From Erodium maritimum (taxonomy: Eukaryota; Streptophyta; Magnoliopsida; Geraniales; Geraniaceae), in contig OY997593.1 of the NCBI GenBank assembly GCA_963921825.1, positions 40,253,111-40,317,110 of the forward strand: a stretch of 64,000 bases of DNA, in the 5' to 3' direction. The position numbers and the translations under genes were made by a program. Below, piece by piece: positions 10,371 through 52,236 of this stretch; the stretch's first letter is position 1, and the number at the start of each line of letters is the position of its first letter. Below the pieces are notes generated by a model. That model was not told where the DNA came from. It worked only from the letters and a program-made list of their open reading frames with translations, and searched no databases.

Positions 10371-13300
10371 TTCTGAGAGTTAATTCCTGGAGTGTCATTC
10401 TTCGTAATGATTTTGAGAGCCTCTTTATGTTAGTTCATTGCAAGGATTGTTTTGCTCCTAGGCACGAGACGTTTTGTCTGGGCTCCTTGGTTTTGAACCT
10501 CTAGGTTGATCCCGTCTCTATTGGTGTCGTTCCCTTGCCCAACTCTCCTCGTCCAAAGGCTGCTTCCTCGGATTCTTCGGACACTCTGTCATCTCCGGCG
10601 AGCCCTACTTCCTCGGTTACTCCGGCAAGTATGATTCCGTCAGAGTCGGTTGCGCGAGATGAGAACGTTCAAAATTCAAACGAGGATCCTGATCTTGATC
10701 GCTCACCCTTATCTAATCAAGGTTTCAATGATTATGAGGACTCCTTCTTAGGATCAGGTTATATCTCTTTTATTCCTGATTCTGTGGGCTTATCTATCGT
10801 TCCAATCGCAAAGAATCCAATTGTCCCAGGCAACAACTCCGGCTTGCGTGGCCCACATGCAACTTCCTCTATTTCTGGTAAAATAGGCGCGCACTCTTCT
10901 TCCAAGTTTTTCTGGGTCTCAGGCCACTCCGAGAAACCTTCTCCTATCCAACCTAAATGGAATTATGTCAAGAGGCTTGATGTTAAGGCACTTGCCACTA
11001 GGGGAGATGTCTTAGAGCAGATCGAAAACTTGACAGCTGAAATTTCAGGTTGTCCTTAATTTGAAGAGGCTGACTTCTCTGATTCTGCTGCGGATTCCGG
11101 TGGAGGCACCTTGTACCCAGTCTCCTCCCCTTAGCATCTTCAATTCTGATTGAGTTATGAAGCTCCTCTCTTGGAATGTGAGAGGAGCAAACTCTACCCA
11201 CAAAAGGAGAGATATTAGACGTGTTTTGCTTGAACACCGTCCAAATTTTGTGATGATCCAAGAAACCAAGACCTGTGATATCTCTGCGTCTTTTCTCCGG
11301 GAGTGTGGCCTCTTTCAAGGTTGAGATTCTTGTTTTATCCCTTCGGAAGGTGCATCTGGCGGAGTCCTTTTTGCTTGAAAGGTTTCGAGATTCCAACTCT
11401 CCAATTCTCGACCAATTGGTACTGCTCTTTACTGGTCTGGTTTGCTTCTTCCTTCAGAACCTACAATCTCTCTTTTGAATATCTATGGCCCCTCTTCCAT
11501 CTCGTGTCGCAGCCATCTCTGGGACTTATTGCTCCTTGATAGAGCATCGTTTGGGGATATACTTATTGCAGGGGGTGACTTCAATTCAGTCTTGACGGTT
11601 GAGGAATGTCGTAACTCGCTAACTTCTTTTGCAGATTGTGCTCTTTTTTCGATTTTTTACTGGGTATGGAATTATTGGACCTGAATTCGGTAGGAGCCAG
11701 CTTCACTTGGTATGGAGGAGGGTCCAAGGCTTCACGCCTTGATCATTTTCTAGTATCTCCATCGACACTTGGCTTTTTCGGAGATTTGATCCAAAATGGC
11801 CATCCGAGATCTTTATCCGACCATAGACCAGTTTCCCTCTTCTCTTCCGTGGTGAACTGGGGTCCTAAACCGATGCGTTTTCTTAATGTTTGGACCAAGC
11901 ACAAGCATTTTCGAGCTGATGTGCAAGCTTTTTGGGATTCTTATGCGCGCCAAGGATCAGCGAGCTACTGCCTGTGGTTCAAACTCAAGTGCCTGCACAC
12001 TGATCTTCATCGCTAGAGCAGGTATGTTTTTGGTCGGGTTGATCGTGAAGTTGAAGCCTTGGCATCTGAGATAAACTCATTTGATGATACCCTTGATGAT
12101 CGAGATTTGTCTGATGGAGAATGCATCTCACGATCCCTGCTGCGTGTTTCTTTGATCCGGAAACAAAAGGTCCTTGCTCGCTTATGGTGTCAAAAAGCAC
12201 GTCTGAAATGGAACAAGCATGGGGACGTTTGCTCTCGGTTTTACCATAAAATTGCAAACATTCGGGCTTCAAGGAACAAAATCACTCAGATTTCCACTGG
12301 TTCAGCTATCCTCTCAGACCCTATTGATATCAAACGTCATGATGTGGATCATTTTGGCTCTCGGTTCACAAGACAAAGTGGTTCCCGTGTCCCGCTTCCT
12401 CCGCTCTCTTTTTCTAGACTGACAGGTTTTCAAGCCTCTTTTTTGGAAGTTCAGTTTACCCAAGAGGAGATTCTAGCTGCTTTATTAGACCATGGCTCGG
12501 AGAAAGCCCCAGGCCAGGACGAGTTTTCTCTTCTTTTCTATAAGGTGTGTTGGGACACTATCAAGGATGACATGTTGATATTTTTTTCTTCTGATTTCTT
12601 TGCTTCAGGAATAATAGGTAAGGGGCTCAATTCCACTTTCCTTACCTTGATTCCAAAGCATCGTTTCGTACAGAGCTTTCAAGACTTCAGACCTATTAGT
12701 CTTATCTCAAGGCCTTATAAAATCTTGGCCAAAGTCTTATTTAATAGACTACGCCAAGTTCTGGATGACATTATCAGTGATTCCCAGTCAAGGTTTGTTG
12801 CAGGCAGGCAACTGGTAGACGGAGTTCTATTTGACTATGAGGTTATTGACTTGATTCGTAGGTCCAGGGAGGAAGTTGTGGTCCTCAATTTGGATTTCAA
12901 AAAGGATTTTGATAAAGTCCGTTGGGATTATGTAGATAATGTGATGTCTGTTATGGAGTTTAGGCCCAAGTGGCGATCTTGGATGGCTGCCTGTTTTAAG
13001 GCCTTTATAGTAGTGCTTGTGAATGGCTCTCCCAGTCAAGATTTTCCCATTCTAAATGGGATTCGCCAACGCTATCCCCTTCTCCCTTCATTTTCTTTCT
13101 TGCACCTGAAGATCTCCATCAGGTTTTGGAGAAGGGTATCAGTTCGGGAGATTATTCTGGTATTTAGATTGGATCCTCATGCCCTGTTATCTCGCATCTG
13201 CAGTTCGCTAATGACACCCTGCTTTTCATTAAGGGCTCGGTGGATGACCTCCTAAGACTCAAGAGCACTCTCCTCACTTTTCAGTTGAGCTCGGGCCTCA

Positions 13301-17569: not shown

Positions 17570-18065
17570 CTAGGTTTCCCTCGCGTGAACAGGTGGTTTG
17601 AGGTTTCCTTCACGTGAGTTGGTTATTCGATGTTTCCCTCGCGTGAACGAGTGGTTTGAGGTTTCCTTCACGTGAGTGGGTTATTTGAGGTTTCCCTACG
17701 TGATCGGGTAATTGGGGTATTGATATTGTGAACAATAGTGATTTGTTTAGTTGAGAACGTGATCCCCGTTTTGAGGTTTCCCTTATGTGATCGGGTAATT
17801 GGGGTATTGATAGTGTGAGCAATGGTGTTTGCTTAGTTGGGAACGTGATCCCCGTTTTGAGGTTTCCCTTATGTGATCGGGTAATTGGGGTATTGATATT
17901 GCGAGCAATAGTGTTTGCTTAGTTGAGAATATGATCCCCGTTTGAGGTTTCCCTACGTGATCGCGTAATTGGGGTATTGAGGTTGTGAGCAATAGTGATT
18001 TGCTGAATTGAGAACATAATCTCCGTTTCGAGGTTTCCCTTACGTGAGAGAGTATTTGAGGTATT
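17570..18065 (+). repeat. Two minisatellites inside element A's internal region
   Basis: From 17570 to about 17690 a 28-30 bp unit recurs (GAGGTTTCCCTCGCGTGAAC). From 17690 to 18065 an 85-bp unit recurs about four times (GTGATCGGGTAATTGGGG, GTGAGCAATAGTG). The same two arrays, in the same order, lie inside the solo LTR at 50700-51330, so LTR-type sequence occupies the gag-bearing part of element A. Confidence 0.85.
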
Positions 18066-19192
18066 AATAGCTTGAGCAGTGTGACGTTTTGGTATCAGGT
18101 TTTGAAGTAGTGGTTTGCCCTGGTTAGATTGGGGACGAGTAGCGAATACTGGTTGGGTTACGGAAGGTTATAAGTAAAGGCATAGAGGACCGTGTGGGGG
18201 TTGCACTAGACCTTACCGGAGTGACTAATGGAGTGGTTGTTCGGTCTTTGATTTGCGCGTCAGTTTTATTGGATACCGGGGTGTCACACTCGTTTGCTTC
18301 GTCGAGTGGTGCTGAGATGTTGGGGCTGAGTTTAGAGTCATTGAGTCCACCCCTGCGTCTGGATACGCCGGTTGGGGGTGATGTGGTGTTGACTAGGGTT
18401 TGTCGTGCCTGCGGAGTTAGAGAAGCGAACCGATACAGGAGGTTCGAGAGAGGGCTCAAGAGCCCTGATGCTGGATCGAGTCCTCACCCCGAGGAGTCGG
18501 GTATGTTCGGAGTCGGTAGGCACGACGACGGTAGAGGAGCGAGGTCTTAGACAGATCGCGAGGTTCCGTGAGGTTCGGCAGCGACTGAGCTTGTGCGTGT
18601 GTCCGTGGGAAGGATACTTACGAAATGACATCCTTTCACGTGATCCTGAGAATGGATTCTAGACAGTAGGAGCGGAGTTCTCCTGTCGACTTTGTCCGCA
18701 GTGGAGGAAGTATCGGCTGTGCAGAGCCGAGAGTTACCGCGAGTGGTGTGCGAGTTCCCCGAGGTCCTTCCGGAGGAGTTGAGCAGGTTGCCACCAGTTC
18801 ATGAGGTGGAGTTCAGGATTGACCTGGTGCCGGGAACGGCAGCGATATCGATGGCGCCTTACAGGTTCGCGCCAGCAGAGTTAACCGAGCTGAAGCGTCA
18901 GCTCGAGGAGCTTCGGGAGAAGCGGTTTATCTGTCCGAGCACATCGCCGTGGGGAGCGCCAGCACTCTTCGTGAAGAAGAAGACTGGAGAGCTTCGGATG
19001 TGTATGGACTACCGGAAAATATACCGGGTTACGGTGAATAACCGATACCCGATGCCGAGAATTGACGACTTGTTCGACCAGTTGAGAGGGTCAACGTGTT
19101 TCTCGAAGATCGACCTGCGATCCGGATATTACCAGTACCCTAATCTGTTCGACTCCTGAGGTACGTCTGTTTTAAATTTCGCGGACGAAATT

Positions 19193-19889: not shown

Positions 19890-21200
19890 CGTCCGCGAAA
19901 TTCAAAACAGACGTACCTCGTGAGTCGAACAACGCGAGGTACTTCGCGCGAAGCTCGTCCTCGCGCTCCCAAGTCGACTTAGCCCCGTGATGCCTCCACT
20001 GCACCCGTACTAGGCGGATAATCTTGCCACGCAGGACCTGCTCCCGTGTGTCCATGATCCGAACCGGCTTCTCCTCATAGGAGACATCGTCAGCCACCTC
20101 GATATCTGCCCACTCAATGACGTGGGAGGGGTCCGCATTGTACTGTCGCAACTGGGACACGTGGAAGACGTTATGAACTCTCCCAAGTTGCGGTGGTAAC
20201 GCTAGACGATAGGCCACTGCTCCCACTCTGCTCAATATCTCGAAAGGGCCAATGTACCGCGGGGCTAACTTGCCCCCGCTGCGTCTGAACCGTACCAGTC
20301 CCTTCCTCGGGATCACCTTCAGGAACACGTGATCACCGACTCCGAACTCAAGAGGTCGACGTCGTCTATCAACATAACTCTTCTGCCGACTCTGTGCGGT
20401 CTTCAACCGCTCGCGTATCAGCGCGACCTTCTCTGTCGTCTCTCAGACAAGATCTGGCCCTAGCACTCTTGTCCCCCCACCTCTGCCCAACACACTGGCG
20501 ATCGACACGGCCTCCCATACAACGCTTCGAACGGTGCCATCCCAATACTGGCATGGAAGCTGTTGTTGTAGGCAAACTCGACCAACGGCAGGTGGGTCTC
20601 CCATGATCCCCTGAAGTCCAACATACATGCCCGCAGCATGTCTTCCAAGATCTGAATAGTGCGCTCGGATTGACCGTCTGTCTAGGGATGGTGTGTTGTA
20701 CTGAGTAGAACCTCGGTCCCCAACGCGGTCTGCAGACTCGGCCAAAATCTGGACGTAAAACGAGGATCCCTGTCAGACACTATCGACACAGGGACCCCAT
20801 GGAGACGCACTATCTCCTGAATGTACAGGCTGCTCAACTTGTCGACCTGATCAGTCATCCTCATAGCCAAGAAATGGGCCAACTTGGTCAACCGAACAAC
20901 TACTACCCATACGACATCGTGTCCCTTCGGCGATCTCGGTAGTCCACTCACGAAGTCCATCGTGACATGCTCCCACTTCCACTGGGCGATCGGTAGTGGC
21001 TGCAATAATCCGGCGGGACGCTGATGTTCGGCTTTCACCTGCTGACAGACGAGACATCTCGATACAAATTCCGCGACTGCTCTCCGCATCCCGCGCCACC
21101 AGAAGTGTCGCCTGATGTCACGGTACATCTTGGTGCCCCCCGGGTGCACGTAAGACACGAATGATGTGACTCTCGCAACACATCGTCTCTACAGTTGCCC
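19890..21200 (-). mobile_element. Element B integrase and chromodomain-like tail (fossil)
   Basis: It reads through a zinc-binding CLVC motif, the core motif [13 protein letters not shown] with its first acidic residue, and [13 protein letters not shown] with the second. The C-terminus contains FHVSQLRQY followed by a chromodomain-like stretch (PVRIMDTREQVLRGKIIRLV, then WEREDELRAKYLALF). It ends in NFADEIPLRG just ahead of the polypurine tract. In chromoviruses this tail targets integration to chromatin. Confidence 0.85.
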
Positions 21201-21429
21201 GGCACGAACAAACCTCCTCGATACCGTAACCCCCAATCAGCACTGATTTCCCAGCCTACTACCTCGTCACCGCTGACGACCCTCTCTCGGATCTCTGACG
21301 TCTCGACGTCCTCCGACTGCGCCTCCAACACTTGGGCAAGTAGTGAGGGCTGAGCAACCAGTGAGCACATGGCCACGCCACCAGTAATCTCCTCTAGCTC
21401 AAGCCCGAACGTGCTCAGTTCCCCCATCA

Positions 21430-22945
21430 TGTCCCACTCTCGGACTGATATGCTAGCAAGACTCGGAACCGACTTCCTACTCAAGGCGTCGGCGACCACG
21501 TTCGCCTTACCCGGATGGTAGTGTAGCTCAAAGTCGTACTCCTCAAGTAGCTCCATCCACCGCCGCTGGCGCATGTTCAGGTCTCGTTGGGAAAATATGT
21601 ACTTGAGGCTCTTGTGATCCGAGAACACCTGAAACCCCTCGCCATACAGATAATACTGCCAGCCCTTTAGCGCGAACACGACTGCTGCTAGCTCAAAGTC
21701 ATGGGTAGGATAGTTGCGCTCGTGTGTCTTCAACTGCCTGGAGCCATAAGCGACAACTCTACCCAACTGCATCAGTACACATCCAAGTCCTTCCCCTGAC
21801 GCGTCACAATAAACCTCATACCCGATCCCTCGCTCTGGCAATACCAACACTGGAGCGCTAGTCAGGCGAGTCTTCAACTCCGTGAACGCATGTTCACAAT
21901 CCTCTGTCCACATAAACCCGACTCCCTTGCGCGTCAACTGAGTCATCGGCGCGGCTAGTCGCACAAAGTCATGGACAAACCGCCGATAATAACATGCCAA
22001 CCCTAGAAAGCTGCGGATCTCGAAGACACTCGTGGGTCGTGCCCACTTCGAAACCGTGTCGATCTTCGACGGATCGACCAGTATACCGTCACGGGATACA
22101 ATGTGACCGAGGAATTTCACCTCAGCGAGCCAAAACTCGCACTTCTCCAGCTTAGCACATAGCTGATGCGTGCGCAGCAGGGTCAGAACGGTTCTTAGAT
22201 GTACGTCATGTGCCGCCTCGCTCTGCGAGTAGATCAAGATGTCGTCCACGAACACCACCACAAACTGATCTAAGAACGGCCAGAATATACTGTTCATCAG
22301 ATCCATGAACGCTGCAGGTGCGTTTGTCAGTCCAAACGGCATCACCAAGAACTCGTAATTCCCGTAGCGTGTCCGGAATCCAGTCTTTGCGACGTCCCCC
22401 TCTCGGACTCGCAACTGGTAATATCCGGATTGCAGATCCATCTTCGAGAAACAGGTCGACCCTCTCAACTGGTCGAACAAGTCGTCAATCCTCGGCATCG
22501 GGTATCGGTTCTTCACCGTAACCCGGTTCAGCTTCCGGTAATCTATACACATCCGAAGCTCTCCACTCTTCTTCTTCACGAAGAGTGTTGGCGCTCCCCA
22601 CGGGGATACGCTCGGACTGATAAATCCCTTCTCTTCAAGCTCCTCAAGATGACGCTTCAGCTCGATCAACTCTGTCAGCGCAAACCTGTAAGGCGCCATC
22701 GATATCGCTGTCGTTCCCAGCACCAGGTCAATCCCGAACTCCACCTCACGTTCTGGTTGAAACCCGCTCAACTCCTCAGGAAAGACCTCGGGGAACTCGC
22801 ATACCACTCGCTGTAACTCTCGGCTCTGCACAACCGATACTTCCTCCACTGCGGACAACGCCGACAGGAGAACCCCGCTGACACTGTCACTCGTCGCCTG
22901 TAGCAGTCGATATTGGCTCGGTACTTTGCCAGCCAATCCATTCAC
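21430..22945 (-). mobile_element. Element B reverse transcriptase and RNase H (fossil)
   Basis: The frame is open over this span. Motifs include [49 protein letters not shown], the catalytic [23 protein letters not shown], and the RNase H stretch [16 protein letters not shown] with ending [12 protein letters not shown]. This is the classical Ty3/gypsy arrangement. Confidence 0.9.
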
Positions 22946-23286
22946 ACGATCACGTCAAAGGTCGTCATTCCCAGCACGAGAAGGTCACTAGGGCAAGGAC
23001 AGTCTGCGACTCTAATTTCGCAGGCACGACAGACCTTAGTCAACAACACATCACCCCCAACTGGGGTGTCCAGGCACAGGGGTGGACTCAACGGCTATAA
23101 ACTCGGCCCCAACCTCTCAGCACAACTCAACGAAATAAACGAGTGCGACGCCCCGGTATCAAATAAGAATAACGCCCATAAATGATACAATAAACACGTA
23201 CCCTTAATGGTCTCGCGATAGGTAGTAGATCTTGGGGCCCGGGAGTCGGTAACTGCGTACACTCTTCCCTGCGACGCCTGTTGCCT

Positions 23287-26250: not shown

Positions 26251-26336
26251 ACACTCACCAACCCCAGGTAACCACAGTCACAATCACAAGCAAAGTTCAA
26301 CAACAGCAACGACACCGGCTTAACACTCCACAGGCA

Positions 26337-26843
26337 CTCATGGCCACCCAAGACACCCACAGTAAAACACGGGTTCAACAACCCCACGGGCACTCATGGC
26401 CACCCAAGACACCAACAGTAAACCACAGGTTCAACGACCCCACGGAGACTCATGGCCACCCAAGACACCAACGGTAAAACACGGGTTCAACGACCCCACG
26501 GGCACTCATGGCCACCCAAGACACCAACGGTAAAATACGTGCTCTTATGGCCACCCAAGACACAAACGGTTAAGTACGGGCTCTCATGGCCACCCAAGAC
26601 ACAAACAGTAAAGTACGGGCTCTCATGGCCACCCAAGACACCGATATTAAAGTACGGGCTCTCATGGCCACCCAAGACAAAAAAAGTAGAGTACGGGCTC
26701 TCATGGCCACCCAAGACACAAACAGTAAAGTACGGGCTCTCATGGCCACCCAAGACACAGACATTAAAGGACGGGCTCTCATGGCAACCCAAGACACAAA
26801 CAGTAGAGTACGGGCTCTCATGGCCACCCAAGACACAAACTAA
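26337..26843 (-). repeat. Minisatellite in LTR, 39-bp core unit, 12 copies
   Basis: CATGGCCACCCAAGACAC recurs twelve times. The first four units are spaced about 54-57 bp and the later ones about 39 bp. Related single or few copies occur at 1-20 and 62585-62680 in other LTRs, so the array expanded inside this LTR copy. Because the unit length of 39 is divisible by three, long repetitive reading frames appear by chance on both strands. Confidence 0.9.
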
Positions 26844-34707: not shown

Positions 34708-34721
34708 TAAAAATCTTGAAT

Positions 34722-37207
34722 TTTTGAGAAGAAATGGTAATATTCATTAATAATAACTTAACTCGGGGACCCCCCAATGGGACGTCCCCGTACATAAACC
34801 AAACTTGAATAATTGTAAAACAAGTGCATAAAGAGTAAATGTGCTCATTAGCATAATAGTAGGTCGGGGATTTGGGACTGCGGTAGCATCCGGATATACC
34901 GATACAGTGTACGCCAACCAAAGGAACTGATCGAGCAGACCAGACGATAGGTAAACAGTGGTGGACCCATTACTCCCCCGGTATGTCAGCGTGCGTCGTC
35001 CTCCCTTGCATGATAGTGGTAGGGCTCCTGAACGCGGGAATGCTGACCCCGAAGTGGTAGGGGAGTAACCTGTCAGCTGTTGGTGGTACCAATGCCACCA
35101 GTACACCAGGGAGAAGGTACAGCCGACCAACCCCTCCCTGGCCCCCGTCCAACTCATTCCTGGAGGCGAGGGTGCTTGGAGCCCCCCGCCGCTGTAGTTG
35201 AAACCTCATTGGACGCCGCCGAGTCCTCTTCCTCCTCCGGCTCCTCCTTCCTCACCAGTCTCTTGGTCCCAGACAGAGACCAGGCTACATCCCTTGCCAT
35301 CCACGCAGCTCGGTCCTCCTCGACCCCTGCATGACTGCGCCCCCACCATCCCGACCCCTCCGGCCTTCCTGGTGTTCGTGGGGCCTCTTTAGCCCGGACA
35401 CCTCTGTCCGACCCCCCTACACCTCTGTCCGACCCACCTAAGTAGGTCCAGTTCGTCCCCGGGGTGGCCTTCCAATGCTTCGTCTTCTCCAAGGCAGATC
35501 GCGGGTCTCCAGGTGCTCGTAGGGATACACCCCTCGAGCTGCCCACAACCGGGCAGACCGGGAAGAGGTGACCCGCACAGCAGCACCCGAAGCAATGTTC
35601 AGGTAGAAATTCATAAGAAATTAGCAGGCGAGTCCGTACCTGCGAGACAGAAAGGCGGAACCAAAGCTGGCTCTGCAGAGGAATCCTGATATCAGCCCTG
35701 ATCCGAACTTTCATAAAGTCCCCCCAGCAAAGCCCGTCCTTATCAACATCCACGCCTTGACAGACGCCTAGTGCGTTGCCAACCCTGAAGCCCACATCCC
35801 TCGTCCAGGCCCCTATTGGTAGATTTGAGACCCGCGCCCAAACCGAGAAATGATGGAACTGCAAGTCACTAACCTGCATATGCGCCCTCAGGTCTGTAAA
35901 CAAGACCAGGGAGTCTCTAAAGGACCAGGGTTCACCCAGCAGAACCCTCTCCCTTTCTTTGGCCGTCCTGAAAAAGAAGGCCACAAGGCCACCTTCCAAT
36001 GGCTTAGCCTCGACCTTCATCCCCCAGATGTCCTCTATACGCGCCACCATAGACTTCCAGAAAATAGACTTGGAGGTCAGGACCTTTGCCGCCAGCGCGT
36101 ACTTGTAAAGATTGCTCCTGCCCGTAACCTCCTGAACGGGGACCACAACTTCCCTGATCCGCATAGCCCCCATATGACGATCCAGCTCCCCTTGTGCCCC
36201 CCTATCGGTCCCATTAGCCACCCGTGCCTCGCCCCTAGGAGACGAGACCGGCACCCGAACAGGCCCGGATCTTGGATCCACCTCGCTCGGCCCACCTTGA
36301 CCAACCCGACCCGCCCCATATCGGGCGGCCCACTCCGCTACGTCCCCCACTCCACCCCGAGTCCAGCCCGGGTGAGGGCCCAGCCCAGGTCGCGGACGAG
36401 CAGGCCTACGGGCATCAGACATGAACCCTTGGCCCAAACCCGCCTCTTCCCTGACCCGGCCTGGCGAAACCCTAGCCGCCATCGGCTCCTTTCCTTGCCT
36501 TCGCCGCCAAGTCATCGCCTCCGGCACCTCCTTCGCTGCCAGCACCGCCTCCGGCACCGGTGACCCCGGCCTCGCCCCCAAGTCGGCCATAGAGTCCGAG
36601 GAGACCACCACGGGATCTCCTCCCGTTCCATGCAGAGCCCCCTCCACGGCACCAGCGCCGCCCTGCTCCGTCCCCCTCTGGATCCCGCCACCGCCCAATC
36701 GCCGCGGCCTGGGTCCCCTCGCCACCGTACGACGGAGTGTGGGTGGCCCAGTTCGAAGCCGACCACCCACCACCCAGCCATCCTCCGCCACCGGGGTAGC
36801 CGAGAAGTGCATCACCGGTGAGCCCGGCTCCCTTCCCGACCAAACCCCCTCCGATATCATCGGCGTTACTTCCTCCGCCGGCGTCAACTCCTCAACCGGC
36901 GTCCCTCAACCGGCGTCTCCTCCGTGGACGCCTCCGAGCCTCGCTCCGAGACCTCCTCCGGTTCAACCCACCCGTGCCCGAGGACATCTCCCTCCATCGG
37001 AGAGCCGTCCTGCTCGCCGGACACCTCTAGACGCGGCCCCCAATGGACGACGTCCTCCACACCCTCCTCTCCACTCGTCACCATCTTCGTCGAAGGCACC
37101 ATGGACAGCGGCTGCGTATCGCAAAACCTGCACTCAAACCCTAGCAGAGAACCTAGAGAGAGAGCGGTTGCGCAGTTACACTAACTATTCTTTCTTATTA
37201 AATTTAT
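34722..37207 (-). mobile_element. ORF1-only LINE derivative with 14-bp TSD
   Basis: TAAAAATCTTGAAT flanks the element at 34708-34721 and 37208-37221. Read on the minus strand it has a 5' UTR (37207-37103), an ORF1 and a ~430-bp 3' region, and ends with a short A-rich tail (TTTCTTCTCAAAA). No endonuclease or reverse-transcriptase sequence is present between ORF1 and the 3' end. The intact duplication shows that it moved as a 2.49-kb unit, presumably helped by an autonomous LINE. Confidence 0.82.
35154..37102 (-). pseudogene. LINE ORF1 with DUF4283-like domain and CCHC zinc knuckle
   Basis: The ATG at 37102 (MVPSTKMVTSGEEG) fits the ORF1 start. A frame change near 36890, in a small duplication of CCGGCGTC-type sequence, leads into a 577-residue open frame from 36887 to 35154. 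In that frame a DUF4283-like domain occupies about residues 255-380 (FWKSMVARIEDIWGMKVEAK, then LGEPWSFRDSLVLF, then FSVWARVSNLPIGAW). The zinc knuckle CFGCCCAGHLFPVC (CX2CX4HX4C) lies near residue 430, and a basic tail follows. This is the usual ORF1 architecture of one plant L1 branch, thought to bind LINE RNA. Apart from the early frame change the protein is remarkably open. The host gene alternative is unlikely given the TSD and 3' tail. Confidence 0.82.
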
Positions 37208-37389
37208 TAAAAATCTTGAATAGATTCTTTTTATATATTTGAAAAAACTAAACATATATATATGGTTGAAACTTATTTTATTTTAGTTTTTTTAGTACAA
37301 TATTTAATAGTCTTGTCTAAAAATATTTAAATAATCCTTGAATTTTCATACATTTTTAATGAAGAGGTGAAATCGGCTACAAACCATTC

Positions 37390-43600: not shown

Positions 43601-45130
43601 ACCCCTGGTTATATACTACTTGGCAGCCAATCATATCCAAATTCTAGCATGCAACTGAACTTTGGCAGGCGAAGCTTCTCTCCTTAGACGCCATACATAC
43701 CCTAATCAGATCAACATTAAGCTCCATACCTTTTTTCCAAATGTCTCTGTTCAAGTCTCGTGCAAAAGTCCCCAACAAACTTGAAGCTATTGAGAGAGCT
43801 TTCCTTTGGGGTGCCAAACCCAACCATCGGCCTCGATGAAAATCGAGCTGGTCAAAGGTTCAACAACCTAAACTCTCAGGCGGTCTGACAATCAGGTGCT
43901 TAGTTGATTTCAATAAAGCTCTCCTCTTCAAATGGATATGGAGGTTCGCCTCCGAGGAGAACTCGCTCTGGAAGCAAATTCTCTGTGCCTTATAAGGTTG
44001 GTTCGATCAGGCCTGAAACCTCTCCAGCATGCCCACCTCGAGATGCTCGCCCAACCTTTCCAATATCCTAAGCCTCTTCCAAGACTCTAAGATCACGAGC
44101 CTCTTCACGTTGGACGGTTTGTGATGGAATTTGGGCTCGGGCTCCAAGATCCGTTTCTGGAAAGACTGTTGGACTGGGACCGAACCCCTCCAAGCCCTGT
44201 ACCCCCACCTCTTCTAAATTGCGCAAAATAGAGAAGCCCTGGTCTCTGATTATTGGCACGAAGATGGCTAGAGTCCGGTCTTCCGGAGATCCCACATGGT
44301 TTATGAATTTGAGCTTTTCAATATCCTACTCATTCACCTTTCAGGCTTTCGTCCATCGGTCATCACGGTCGGATTCTATGGAAGCACAACTTCAAGTCTT
44401 TCTCAGTTAAGGAATGTTATGAAGCAATTAAGGCAAACATCACCAGCCCCAATTTGGAATGGGCATCCTATCTTTGGAAATCCAAATTACCTCCAAAGAT
44501 CACACTCTTTAGTTGGTTGGTCGCCTTCAAAGCCATCCCTTCCAAGTCCTTTTTAGAATTGAGAGGTTTCCCCATCCCCCTAGCCGCTGCAATGTGCAAC
44601 CTCTGCCCAAGAACCTTCGAGGACAGCAAGTATGTGCTTCTTCTCTGCCATCGTTCCTCGGAGTTTTGGTACCTCATCCTCAGGTGGTGGAATGTAAGAG
44701 GCTGCATACCCTCCTCCCACTCTGAACTAATTTGTCTATGGCCTGGTTTCTGCTCTAAAAAATCCCTCAAACTACACAGGTCAAGGACCTTGTTTCTAAG
44801 CTTCTGGTTCCTGTGGCTTGCCAGAAACGCGTCAGTGTTCTCCAACTCTGTGGAATCTGCTGAGTTCGTCCTCTTGAGAGTTCAATTACTAATCTTCTCC
44901 CTTCTGTCATTTTCCCAAAAATCCATCTCCGGGAAAGACATCTCCCTCTGGAAGTGCTCCCCGAGTAAATTGCTACTCGGCCTATCTGCTCCCCAGGCCT
45001 GATAATATTCTGGCCTCCTCTCTTTGCCTCTTTGGCTTATCTTAGACTTTGGTCTTTTTTTTGTAAGGGTCTACCTCAACTATGTATCGACGTTTCTCAA
45101 TAAAACCATTATTTTTGCTGATAAAAAAAA
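40700..45130 (+). mobile_element. LINE-C, plant L1-type LINE, ORF2 with remnant of ORF1
   Basis: A proline/serine-rich ORF1 remnant (40740-41138) is followed by ORF2 (41384-45002). A 3' UTR follows with AATAAAACC and a short A tail ending at 45130. The 5' limit is uncertain: somewhere between about 40445 and 40740, after the SANT-like ORF. A TSD is not evident. Sequence family and codon choices differ from LINE-A/B (C-rich rather than T-rich third positions), so it is a separate lineage. Confidence 0.8.
41384..45002 (+). pseudogene. LINE-C ORF2 (endonuclease, reverse transcriptase, zinc-binding domain), broken
   Basis: It opens MIILLWNARGMNLGKKKRAL at 41384. Endonuclease motifs follow in changing frames: GGLISIWDS, VGDFNSVLQ, FTWFGPSSKASLLDRFLLS and ISDHKPI. 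Reverse-transcriptase motifs are NKAQGPEGF, LIPKIP, LLKLDFAKAFDKL, GVRQGCSISPFLF, and the catalytic YADD at 43372-43383, directly preceded by a TAG. The zinc-binding domain at 44454-45002 contains CNLCPRTFEDSKYVLLLC followed by FWFLWLARNASVFSN. Many stops and shifts are present, yet the catalytic YADD itself is kept. Confidence 0.85.
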
Positions 45131-50075: not shown

Positions 50076-50706
50076 CTGATTGTGGTTGTGTGTGGCCATG
50101 AGTGCATGTGGGGTGTTAAACTTGTATGGTTGTTGACTGACTTGTTGATTGGTAGCTAGTCATTATATTATTTTCGCTATTTGTTGAACCTTATGTGATG
50201 ACTGTGATTGCATGGAGGTTTGGCCCGCCTGACGACAAAGGGTGCCACGGGGTCGCGCGCGTAGGGGTTGGCAAGCCTTCTGACTAACCATCGGTAAAGT
50301 GTGCATTGCTCCGCGATGAAGGGCGGCTCCCCTTCTGACTAGCTATCGGAAAAGTATTGCGTTATATGTCGCGAAGAGGTCGACCACCTGGCCCGACTGC
50401 GTGTCGGGGAAAGTTGCGTGGGGCAGGCTCAAGCCCAGCCGGTTAGCTACCGGAAACTGAGCAGCTGGTGTGCGATACTTTGTGATCTTGCGTGCATTGT
50501 GTGTGTTGATATTGTTTATATTGCGGGACTTGGTTCACGATTGTGTTTGTTTGCAAAGGTCGTAAGTTCTGTGTTAAAGGGTGAGACTTTGGGTTCGAGA
50601 CTTATGAATAACCTACGGTGGTGATACAATGCCTCTTTGTGAGGGTCTCACAACGGAGAAGGGCTAGGGTTGATGCGCTGTGGCGCCGTACGAACTAGGT
50701 TGTTCG

Positions 50707-51330
50707 AGGTTTCCCTCACGTGAACAGGTGGTTTGAGGTTTCCCTCACGTGAGCGGGTTGTTCGAGGTTTCCCTCACGTGAACGGGTGGTTTGAGGTTTC
50801 CCTCACATGAGTGGGTTGTTTGAGGTTTCCCTCACGTGAACGGGTGGTTTGAGGTTTCCCTCACGTGAACGGGTTGTTTGAGGTTTCCCTCACGTGAACG
50901 GGTGGTTTGAGGTTTCCCTCACGTGAGTGGGTTGTTTGAGGTTTTCCCTATGTGATCGGGTAATTGGGGTATTGATGTTGTGAGCAATAGTGTTTTACTT
51001 AGTTGAGAACATGATCACCGTTTTGAGGCTTCCCCTACGTGATCGGGTAATTGGGGTATTGATATTGTGAGCAATAGTGAATTGCTTAGTTGAGAACATG
51101 ATCCCCATTTTGAGGATTCCCCTACGCGATCGGGTAATTGGGGTATTGATATTGTGAGCAATAGTGATTTGCTTAGTTGAGAACGTGATCCCCGTTTTGA
51201 GGTTTCCCCTACGTGATCGGGTAATTGAGGTGTGGATATGGTGAGCAATAGTTTTTTGCTTAGTTTAGAATATGATCCCCATTCGAGGTTTCCCTTACGT
51301 GAGCGAATATTTGAGGTATTGACATCGTGA
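50707..51330 (+). repeat. Adjacent 28-bp and 87-bp arrays in solo LTR
   Basis: About nine copies of GAGGTTTCCCTCACGTGAAC (28-29 bp spacing) run to 50940. About four copies of an 87-bp unit follow (GTGATCGGGTAATTGGGG, TGAGCAATAGTG, GAACATGATC) to 51330. The same order occurs at 17570-18065. Confidence 0.88.
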
Positions 51331-52236
51331 GCAGTTGTGACGGTTTGGTATCAGGTTTTGAGGTAGTTGTTTGCCCTGTTTAGATTGGTAAGTTGTTGAT
51401 GTTTTACTAGTATGCCATAATCGAACGGGTATCCGTGGATGTGAGCGGAACACTCATCCCCTTTACTACTTTTCCCGCAGGCCTTTGAGGTAGGGACGAG
51501 TAGCGAATACTGGTTTGGTTGCGAAAAGTTACAAGTAAATGCACATAGGATCGTGTGAGGGCTGTGCTTTACCTTGTCGGTGTGACTAATGGAATGGTTG
51601 TTCGGTCTCTGATTTGGGGTCTCCTTTACGTGCACGGGTCTTGGATGGTTGGGGTGAATTTGACAGTGATTTGTGTGACAGTCGGGTTTAACATGTGATT
51701 TGGGGTAGTAGTCCCCTGTGTTTTTGTTTGTTGCCGGTGTTCCCGGTATTTCTGCTGTATGCCGTAGTCAGTCTGGTGTCCGTGGTGGTGAGCGAAACGC
51801 TCACCCCTTGCTGCTTTTCCTACATGTACCGTTCGCGAGGCGGACTAGGAGGATCTCTCGAGGCTTGAAGAGCTAGGAGCGAGAGTCCGGGCTGTCGGGG
51901 TTGTCTAGCGACGTACACTCATGTTTTAGTGTTCTTTCATTTTTTTTAAATTAAAACTCGGTTGTAAAATTATTGCTTTTGATTAACGTAAGTGGTAATT
52001 TTTTTTTAAAAAGGGTTTATTAAAATGTTTGAAAATCGTTTTACTGTTTCACCGTTCGCGTTCCGGGTTCGGTCATGCCGAATTCAGGGCGTGACAATTG
52101 AAAAATATCTGCATGAGAGTGGGAGGAATTGTTGAAAATGATATCATTCCTGCACAACCAGATCCTCCACAGGACTACCAAAGCCAACATGCACCACTGT
52201 TTTACAGAATGCTGAGGACCTAAATTTCTCCAAGAA

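Follow-up and report, generated by a model that had tools for sequence, protein, structure and literature searches.

A large ORF1-only LINE family in the genome of Erodium maritimum, probably copied by ORF2 protein borrowed in trans

Here we describe a retroelement of Erodium maritimum (assembly GCA_963921825.1, contig OY997593.1, positions 40,253,111-40,317,110; this whole stretch of 64,000 nt is the window analysed) that very probably belongs to a large ORF1-only, or half-LINE, family which derives from plant L1-clade LINEs and borrows ORF2 protein (ORF2p) in trans. Since a LINE is reduced here to its RNA-binding half, the copying enzyme must come from elsewhere, and complete LINEs are its most likely lenders. 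The data support a family of copies with TSDs and poly(A) tails, the absence of ORF2 from the loci that were read, selection on ORF1, a slowly evolving 3' UTR, covariation in a terminal hairpin and the existence of derivatives that lack the DUF4283 domain.

The window copy lies on the minus strand and occupies positions 34722-37207 between its TSDs, or 34708-37221 with the TSDs included. Its features, from the 5' to the 3' side of the element, are the following.

37208-37221, plus strand: TSD on the 5' side of the element, an exact 14-bp match.
37174-37207, minus strand: 34 nt from the TSD to the conserved 5' end, absent from the other copies; the alignments of the best relatives begin at query positions 35-36.
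37103-37173, minus strand: conserved 5' UTR (GCGCAACCGCTCTCTC...), the common start of the family.
35154-37102, minus strand: ORF1 region from the family ATG to the TGA, frameshifted in the window copy.
35700-36050, minus strand: DUF4283 domain (Pfam PF14111, E 6.6e-15, above the cut-off).
35550-35693, minus strand: zinc-knuckle region, CX2CX4HX4C, by reading of the sequence.
34726-35153, minus strand: non-coding 3' UTR, with an internal-branch rate below that of fourfold sites.
34913-35093, minus strand: most slowly changing block of the 3' UTR (internal branches 0.10-0.20, terminal branches 0.20-0.40 changes per site).
34764-34790, minus strand: candidate terminal hairpin, from pairing and double changes in 29 aligned tails.
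34722-34750, minus strand: 3' terminal motif, TTAATGAAT...TCTTCTC plus AAAA, which resembles the ends of L085-type L1s.
34708-34721, plus strand: TSD on the 3' side of the element, an exact 14-bp match.

The 14-bp TSD (TAAAAATCTTGAAT), which an earlier note made from the letters of the window had reported on both sides, is exact, and the window holds no perfect copies beyond these two. The conserved 5' end of the family, at about 37173, lies 34 nt inside the TSD, and the intervening stretch (37174-37207) has no match in the other fetched loci. The tail of the window copy consists of no more than four A, together with one that belongs to the TSD. The note had also described a long open frame with a DUF4283 domain and a CCHC knuckle. 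Such a frame is indeed present (577 codons, minus strand, 35154-36887), and its knuckle, CFGCCCAGHLFPVC, matches CX2CX4HX4C by reading, with the Pfam zf-CCHC_4 hit (E 0.0035) falling below the cut-off; however, the frame has a TTG start preceded by an in-frame stop, and ORF1 itself is broken near its N-terminus. The ATG at 37102 is kept, a frameshift leads to a stop at codon 72, and the frame is open from 36905 on. We read the 577-codon frame as what remains, after the frameshift, of a family ORF of about 643 aa. In agreement with the note's statement that endonuclease and reverse transcriptase are missing, the 577-aa frame and an overlapping 136-aa frame are both free of Pfam matches to reverse transcriptase, endonuclease and RNase H. 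The latter, a second ORF whose ATG overlaps the ORF1 stop, was considered as coding and rejected: its dN/dS is about 0.9, like that of other frames. A search of solved structures gave no relative of the DUF4283 region (best E 0.32), and a single-sequence AlphaFold model of the domain was unusable (mean pLDDT 41).

Elsewhere in the window, two tandem arrays located 33 kb apart (17572-18069 and 50698-51340) are built of closely similar 29/58/86-87-bp units (TTTGAGGTTTCCC...), which suggests a duplicated array. A further array, of 39/56-bp units, lies at 26328-26840, partly within a repetitive open frame.

To place the window copy among its relatives, we searched its own assembly, a single genome of 763 Mb in 40 contigs. 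(Contig C1, at 158.6 Mb, is nearly twice as long as each of C2-C9, at 62.6-86.8 Mb; C1-C9 make up nearly the whole assembly.) A nucleotide search finds the element at at least 40 places, the window included, the other 39 being near-full-length and 82-97% identical to the window copy; two extra search rows are pieces of two of these 40 places. All 40 alignments arrive at the 3' end, one of them 5 bases short. At the 5' side, 32 start no further in than base 64 of the query, six start between bases 131 and 160, and two between 317 and 323, the alignment of one of these last two being split in two pieces. Short patterns match far more often. A 25-mer across the ORF1 stop has 3,590 matches genome-wide and a 37-mer in the 3' UTR has 1,432 (up to 3 mismatches allowed in each case), with no match for either reversed pattern. 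With a protein query reaching from DUF4283 to the stop, the best 128 of 14,066 candidate places are all 80-100% identical. Nine of the 40 aligned copies carry the family ORF intact, with the conserved ATG and a length of 637-654 aa, and the other 31 have no intact frame. Within groups at 82-97% identity to the window copy there are disjoint close pairs, with nearest-neighbour identities of 96.7-98.1%. The counts point to a large ORF1-only family.

The copies appear to have moved as such. We fetched the 39 other copies with 1-kb flanks and could score 30 of the 40 for TSDs, with the 5' anchor set automatically; 10 were dropped, including the window copy, although clear TSDs are also present in some of the dropped copies, such as that of the window. 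A TSD score of at least 11 is reached by 25 of the 30 scorable copies, compared with 1.9% of 578 shuffled flank pairs. Among the 25 is L009, for which the program picked a longer repeat over the likely TSD. With most of the scorable copies carrying a TSD of their own, and with poly(A) tails, the proposal that the element moved in its short form is borne out. At the start of 24 TSDs, T is found at position -2 in 16, a pyrimidine at -1 in 22 and A at 0 in 22. Since the TSDs were called beside the poly(A) tail, the preferences at -1 and 0 are in part built in; the T at -2 is consistent with an L1-type TT/AAA nick. Between the TSD and the 5' anchor the copies have 1-70 nt, of which 1-2 nt belong to the element (the value for L009 is unsafe). 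We considered whether these extra 5' stretches are shared transduced sequence, comparing those of nine copies with at least 25 nt and that of the window against the other fetched loci. None of the 10 had a match elsewhere beyond one of 15 nt, and the idea was rejected; the extra nucleotides may reflect an upstream transcription start or filler.

The ORF1 stop runs directly into the family 3' UTR in 40 of 40 copies. The same junction is found in 8 places picked by the exact ORF1-stop motif but without the exact 3'-UTR motif, as well as in 10 places picked as still unresolved. Among the 128 protein matches we took the 44 on C1 and C2, selected irrespective of the 3' UTR, and 39 of them have the family 3' UTR right after ORF1 (27 with the exact 3'-UTR motif at the expected distance, 2 among the first 40 copies and 10 by reading); the other 5 were not read. 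A search with the last 279 bp finds at least 40 places, 26 of them outside the first 40. Twenty of the 26 were read, and 19 keep at least the final ORF1 codons, while L061 starts inside the 3' UTR. L056 is 5'-truncated within ORF1, and six further loci picked by the 37-mer all include at least the end of ORF1. Finally, we searched 83 loci (the 39 full copies with flanks and 44 stretches of 0.45-1.74 kb) by tblastn with five ORF2 frames taken from three L1 loci. No ORF2 was detected inside the element; the sole matches, at L031 and L032, lie in flanks past the poly(A). Given this common junction and the lack of ORF2 in the 83 loci, there is no sign that ORF2 was lost copy by copy. The genome search suggested in the earlier note has thus returned what was predicted, many copies with one ORF1-to-3'-UTR junction and their own TSDs; the element is not single-copy, and nothing suggests separate losses of ORF2.

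These counts bear on a first rival explanation, namely that an autonomous LINE with the same ends is extant and that the ORF1-only form has recently and repeatedly arisen from it by deletion. There is a precedent in mammals, where, according to the part of the source available to us (PMC5753468), HAL1 families arose several times from L1, and the loci that we read are a minority of the copies in the genome. Nevertheless, we hold this reading to be unlikely: the ORF1 stop and the 3' UTR are continuous in the copies read, including a synonymously saturated locus, and the 3' UTR follows ORF1 in 39 of the 44 protein matches on two contigs, with 5 unread.

We then compared synonymous and nonsynonymous changes in ORF1, as had also been proposed, by parsimony on a tree of the 40 copies, which are those scoring best and most like the window; recombination in the 3' end was ignored. 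On internal branches the DUF4283 and CCHC regions together show 149 synonymous and 28 nonsynonymous changes and no stops (dN/dS of about 0.07), as compared with 239 synonymous and 210 nonsynonymous changes and 20 stops on terminal branches (dN/dS of about 0.33). For the whole of ORF1 the ratio is 0.33 on internal versus 0.57 on terminal branches; the N-terminal part shows the pattern more weakly (0.60 versus 0.75), and the C-terminal part gives 0.09 versus 0.70. Wrong-frame controls on ORF1 give 1.5-1.6 and 1.2. In the core, second codon positions change at 0.023 per site on internal branches versus 0.733 for fourfold sites, and at 0.397 versus 1.295 on terminal branches. This pattern indicates purifying selection on ORF1 in the source lineages and decay of their offspring. 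Pairwise comparisons with the window copy extend the result (ten copies were tried, two of them without a full core by the motif used). Seven closer copies have pS of 0.06-0.33 and pN of 0.013-0.043. The diverged ORF1-only locus L062 differs from the window core at 30, 9 and 113 first, second and third codon positions, respectively, with pS of 0.76, pN of 0.08 and a protein identity of 88%. The ORF1-only state looks old, since L062 is synonymously saturated and yet 88% identical in protein.

The non-coding 3' UTR also evolves slowly. Its internal-branch rate is 0.234 per site versus 0.73-0.85 at fourfold sites, and on terminal branches it is 0.52, with 0.20-0.40 in the slowest block, versus 0.80-1.30 at fourfold sites. 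Pure post-insertion decay would not give slowness on terminal branches as well; part of it may come from homogenisation, or from terminal branches long enough to take in evolution of the source. Rfam has no match in the element up to E 1, and the 3' UTR does not fold better than its shuffles (z -0.25). A 28-pair core structure in alignment columns 104-214 is paired in 97.7%, with no compensatory changes and no excess over column shuffles. For the hairpin at 34764-34790, 84% of the cells are paired in the 29 tails and 16 cells are double-changed versus 6.2 in shuffles (a count reached in 0 of 500 shuffles). However, covarying pairs are no more numerous than in shuffles (107/500), and one of the seven pairs is broken in 13 of the 28 rows. 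Among ten further tails, eight keep 4-6 of the seven pairs and two do not align to the hairpin. Covariation supports the putative hairpin near the 3' end, as in the tails of stringent-type plant L1s, with these reservations. According to a review of the 3' ends of plant L1s (PMC3747384, of which a part was available to us), one monocot lineage has a hairpin with CGAG after it. At the foot of the Erodium hairpin, CGAG is present in 21 of the 29 aligned tails, partly inside the stem, and in none of the ten further tails; because of the latter count we regard the likeness as a weak lead.

The family also comprises shorter forms, of about 1.2-1.4 kb, which lack DUF4283 and keep the final ORF1 codons and the 3' UTR. 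Eight of them (L048, L049, L051, L052, L053, L059, L060 and L066) carry TSDs with scores of 13-17 versus control maxima of 8-12, the TSD of L059 being A-rich. In the remaining 12 of 20 loci no TSD exceeds the controls, and the fetched stretch ends short of the 5' end in L050, L057 and L064 and probably also in L055, L062, L063 and L065. One junction is common to L051, L052 and L066, at three places. The short forms thus moved too, so that not every copy strictly needs a full ORF1 of its own in cis; selection indicates that ORF1 nonetheless matters for the long lineage. Five loci (L051, L055, L058, L062 and L067) have a 3' UTR of mixed affinity: its first part is closer to L072 (87-96% identity) than to the window copy (80-85%), its last part closer to the window copy (95-97%) than to L072 (64-67%); window and L072 are 84% identical in the first part and 65% in the last. 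We take this as an exchange of 3' ends between subfamilies. Separately, the DUF4283-less stretches L079, L081 and L083 have open frames of about 183-185 codons, which in L081 and L083 run into the ORF1 C-terminus and which are a possible candidate for a small protein of the derivatives.

A second rival, slightly less probable than the first, sees processed pseudogenes in the copies: their source would be a host gene that arose by domestication of a LINE ORF1, with its mRNA retroposed by L1 and selection acting on the host protein. TSDs, poly(A), the lack of ORF2 and a selected source are all expected of processed pseudogenes as well. Less easily accommodated are the thousands of motif copies, the disjoint close pairs (which, within their groups, would need several host paralogues), the uniform 5' start, the slow evolution of a non-coding 3' UTR, the exchange of 3' ends and the amplification of internal-deletion forms. 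As for dead L1s that lost ORF2 by chance and whose frame is open by luck, the frameshift of the window copy and the 31 decayed frames would fit, but the common junction, the individual TSDs, the nine whole frames and the internal dN/dS refute this reading.

The genome also contains full L1s. L085 and L086 have an ORF2 with endonuclease and reverse transcriptase, and the ORF1 of L085, in which Pfam recognises DUF4283 and zf-CCHC_4, is homologous to that of the family (32% identity over 222 aa, E 1e-29). Three further reverse transcriptase loci, L068-L070, have no significant DNA similarity to the element; ORF1 of L068 and L070 is composed of RRM and DUF4283 (Pfam), and the ORF1 start of L069 was not seen. 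Their ORF2 frames are open for 1231-1248 codons and their ends read TTGCTGAT(C)AAAA. In the window itself, fragments with RVT_1 and zf-RVT at 12017-13249 and 44313-44999 (both plus strand) look by eye like ORF2 pieces of L068-L070-like LINEs, and a 638-aa open fragment with reverse transcriptase and RNase H at 21041-22954 (minus strand) is, by domain order, probably of an LTR element (gypsy-type).

Neither the four L1 loci nor 14 further L1 3' ends include a parent with shared ends, the terminal motif alone being shared, and none of the ORF2-bearing LINEs among the loci read has the family's 5' end, ORF1 C-terminus or 3' UTR. The suggestion that the element keeps the 5' UTR and 3' end of a LINE therefore holds in part: the ends are family-wide, but, apart from the short terminal motif, they are the family's own. 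Fifteen L1s, namely L085 and 14 ORF2 relatives of it selected from 150 places, have 3' ends that are variants of TTAATRAAT...TCAAAA; 8 of the 14, like L085, have a DUF4283 match about 4.5-5 kb upstream. We scored the window end against them, using as controls the sequences before other A-runs, with those resembling the element's own end removed. Its mean score is equalled by 8 of 1,052 control ends and its best score by 19 of 1,052; for the older subfamilies, 29-61 of the 1,052 controls equal the mean score and 39-179 the best. The element's end thus resembles those of L085-type L1s over a short match. Because no ORF2-bearing LINE with these ends was found, descent by loss of ORF2 rests on the distant homology of ORF1. 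The best candidates for a partner would be L1s with a DUF4283/zinc-knuckle ORF1.

We propose the following mechanism. The family RNA, predicted to run from GCGCAGCC to the poly(A), would consist of the 5' UTR, a single DUF4283-zinc-knuckle ORF, the constrained 3' UTR with its hairpin, the TTAATRAAT...TCAAAA-type end and the poly(A). It would be translated into ORF1 protein, which would coat that same RNA in cis. The 3' end and the poly(A) would then recruit, in trans, the ORF2 protein (endonuclease and reverse transcriptase) of a full L1 whose own ORF1 is most likely of the DUF4283/zinc-knuckle type, and target-primed reverse transcription at TT/AAA-like sites would generate TSDs of 12-20 bp. 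Both the role of the 3' UTR and the descent by loss of ORF2 are parts of this model that we infer. With regard to history, we lean slightly towards a single, ancient loss of ORF2, after which the family would have persisted as an independent, self-sustaining ORF1-only clade with a selected ORF1, a 3' recognition element of its own, exchanged 3' ends and DUF4283-less second-order parasites.

A parasite that keeps ORF1 and not ORF2 bears on a long-debated problem, the role of the ORF1 protein, and on whether ORF1p works in cis when ORF2p can work in trans. The family offers a comparison set, since it comprises thousands of motif copies, a number of intact frames, a diverged sister group and DUF4283-less derivatives, and its slow 3' UTR is a candidate for the choice of RNA by the plant L1 machinery. 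Our results also serve as a warning for annotation, since some plant 'DUF4283 proteins' may be half-LINEs.

Half-elements of a similar kind are known from mammals, flies and slime moulds. Judging by titles and abstract openings, with few subscription journals covered, we found no plant ORF1-only LINE among the papers listed, in line with the earlier note, which knew of no well-described plant counterpart and named HAL1 as the closest precedent. HAL1 (half-L1) is of the same kind, alongside TRE5-A.2 and HeT-A; for all of the systems compared here we draw on those parts of the cited sources that were available to us. HAL1 is a non-autonomous mammalian L1 derivative that, like the Erodium family, encodes ORF1 alone and is likely moved by L1 (PMC5753468, PMC4161310). 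Its ORF1p is the mammalian coiled-coil protein, in contrast to the DUF4283-zinc-knuckle ORF1 in Erodium, where, in addition, no parent with shared ends was found, the 3' UTR is slow and second-order deletion forms occur. TRE5-A.2 of Dictyostelium is a LINE variant without ORF2 that is mobilised in trans by the ORF2p of TRE5-A.1 (PMC5633606); it inserts beside tRNA genes and has a known autonomous sister, whereas none was found for the Erodium family. HeT-A, an abundant non-LTR element of Drosophila telomeres, has no reverse transcriptase but a Gag (ORF1), whose gene is conserved in a way that suggests negative selection (PMC5537684). It is added to chromosome ends, for which a nick is thought to be unneeded, while the Erodium family makes TSDs inside contigs. 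Among plants, Celine of poplar is a full L1 with DUF4283 in ORF1, an endonuclease-reverse transcriptase ORF2, a poly(A) end and TSDs (PMC11288735). Celine, L085 and L086 thus have the ORF2 that the Erodium family lacks in the loci read, and L085 shares with the family a homologous ORF1 and a poly(A) end.
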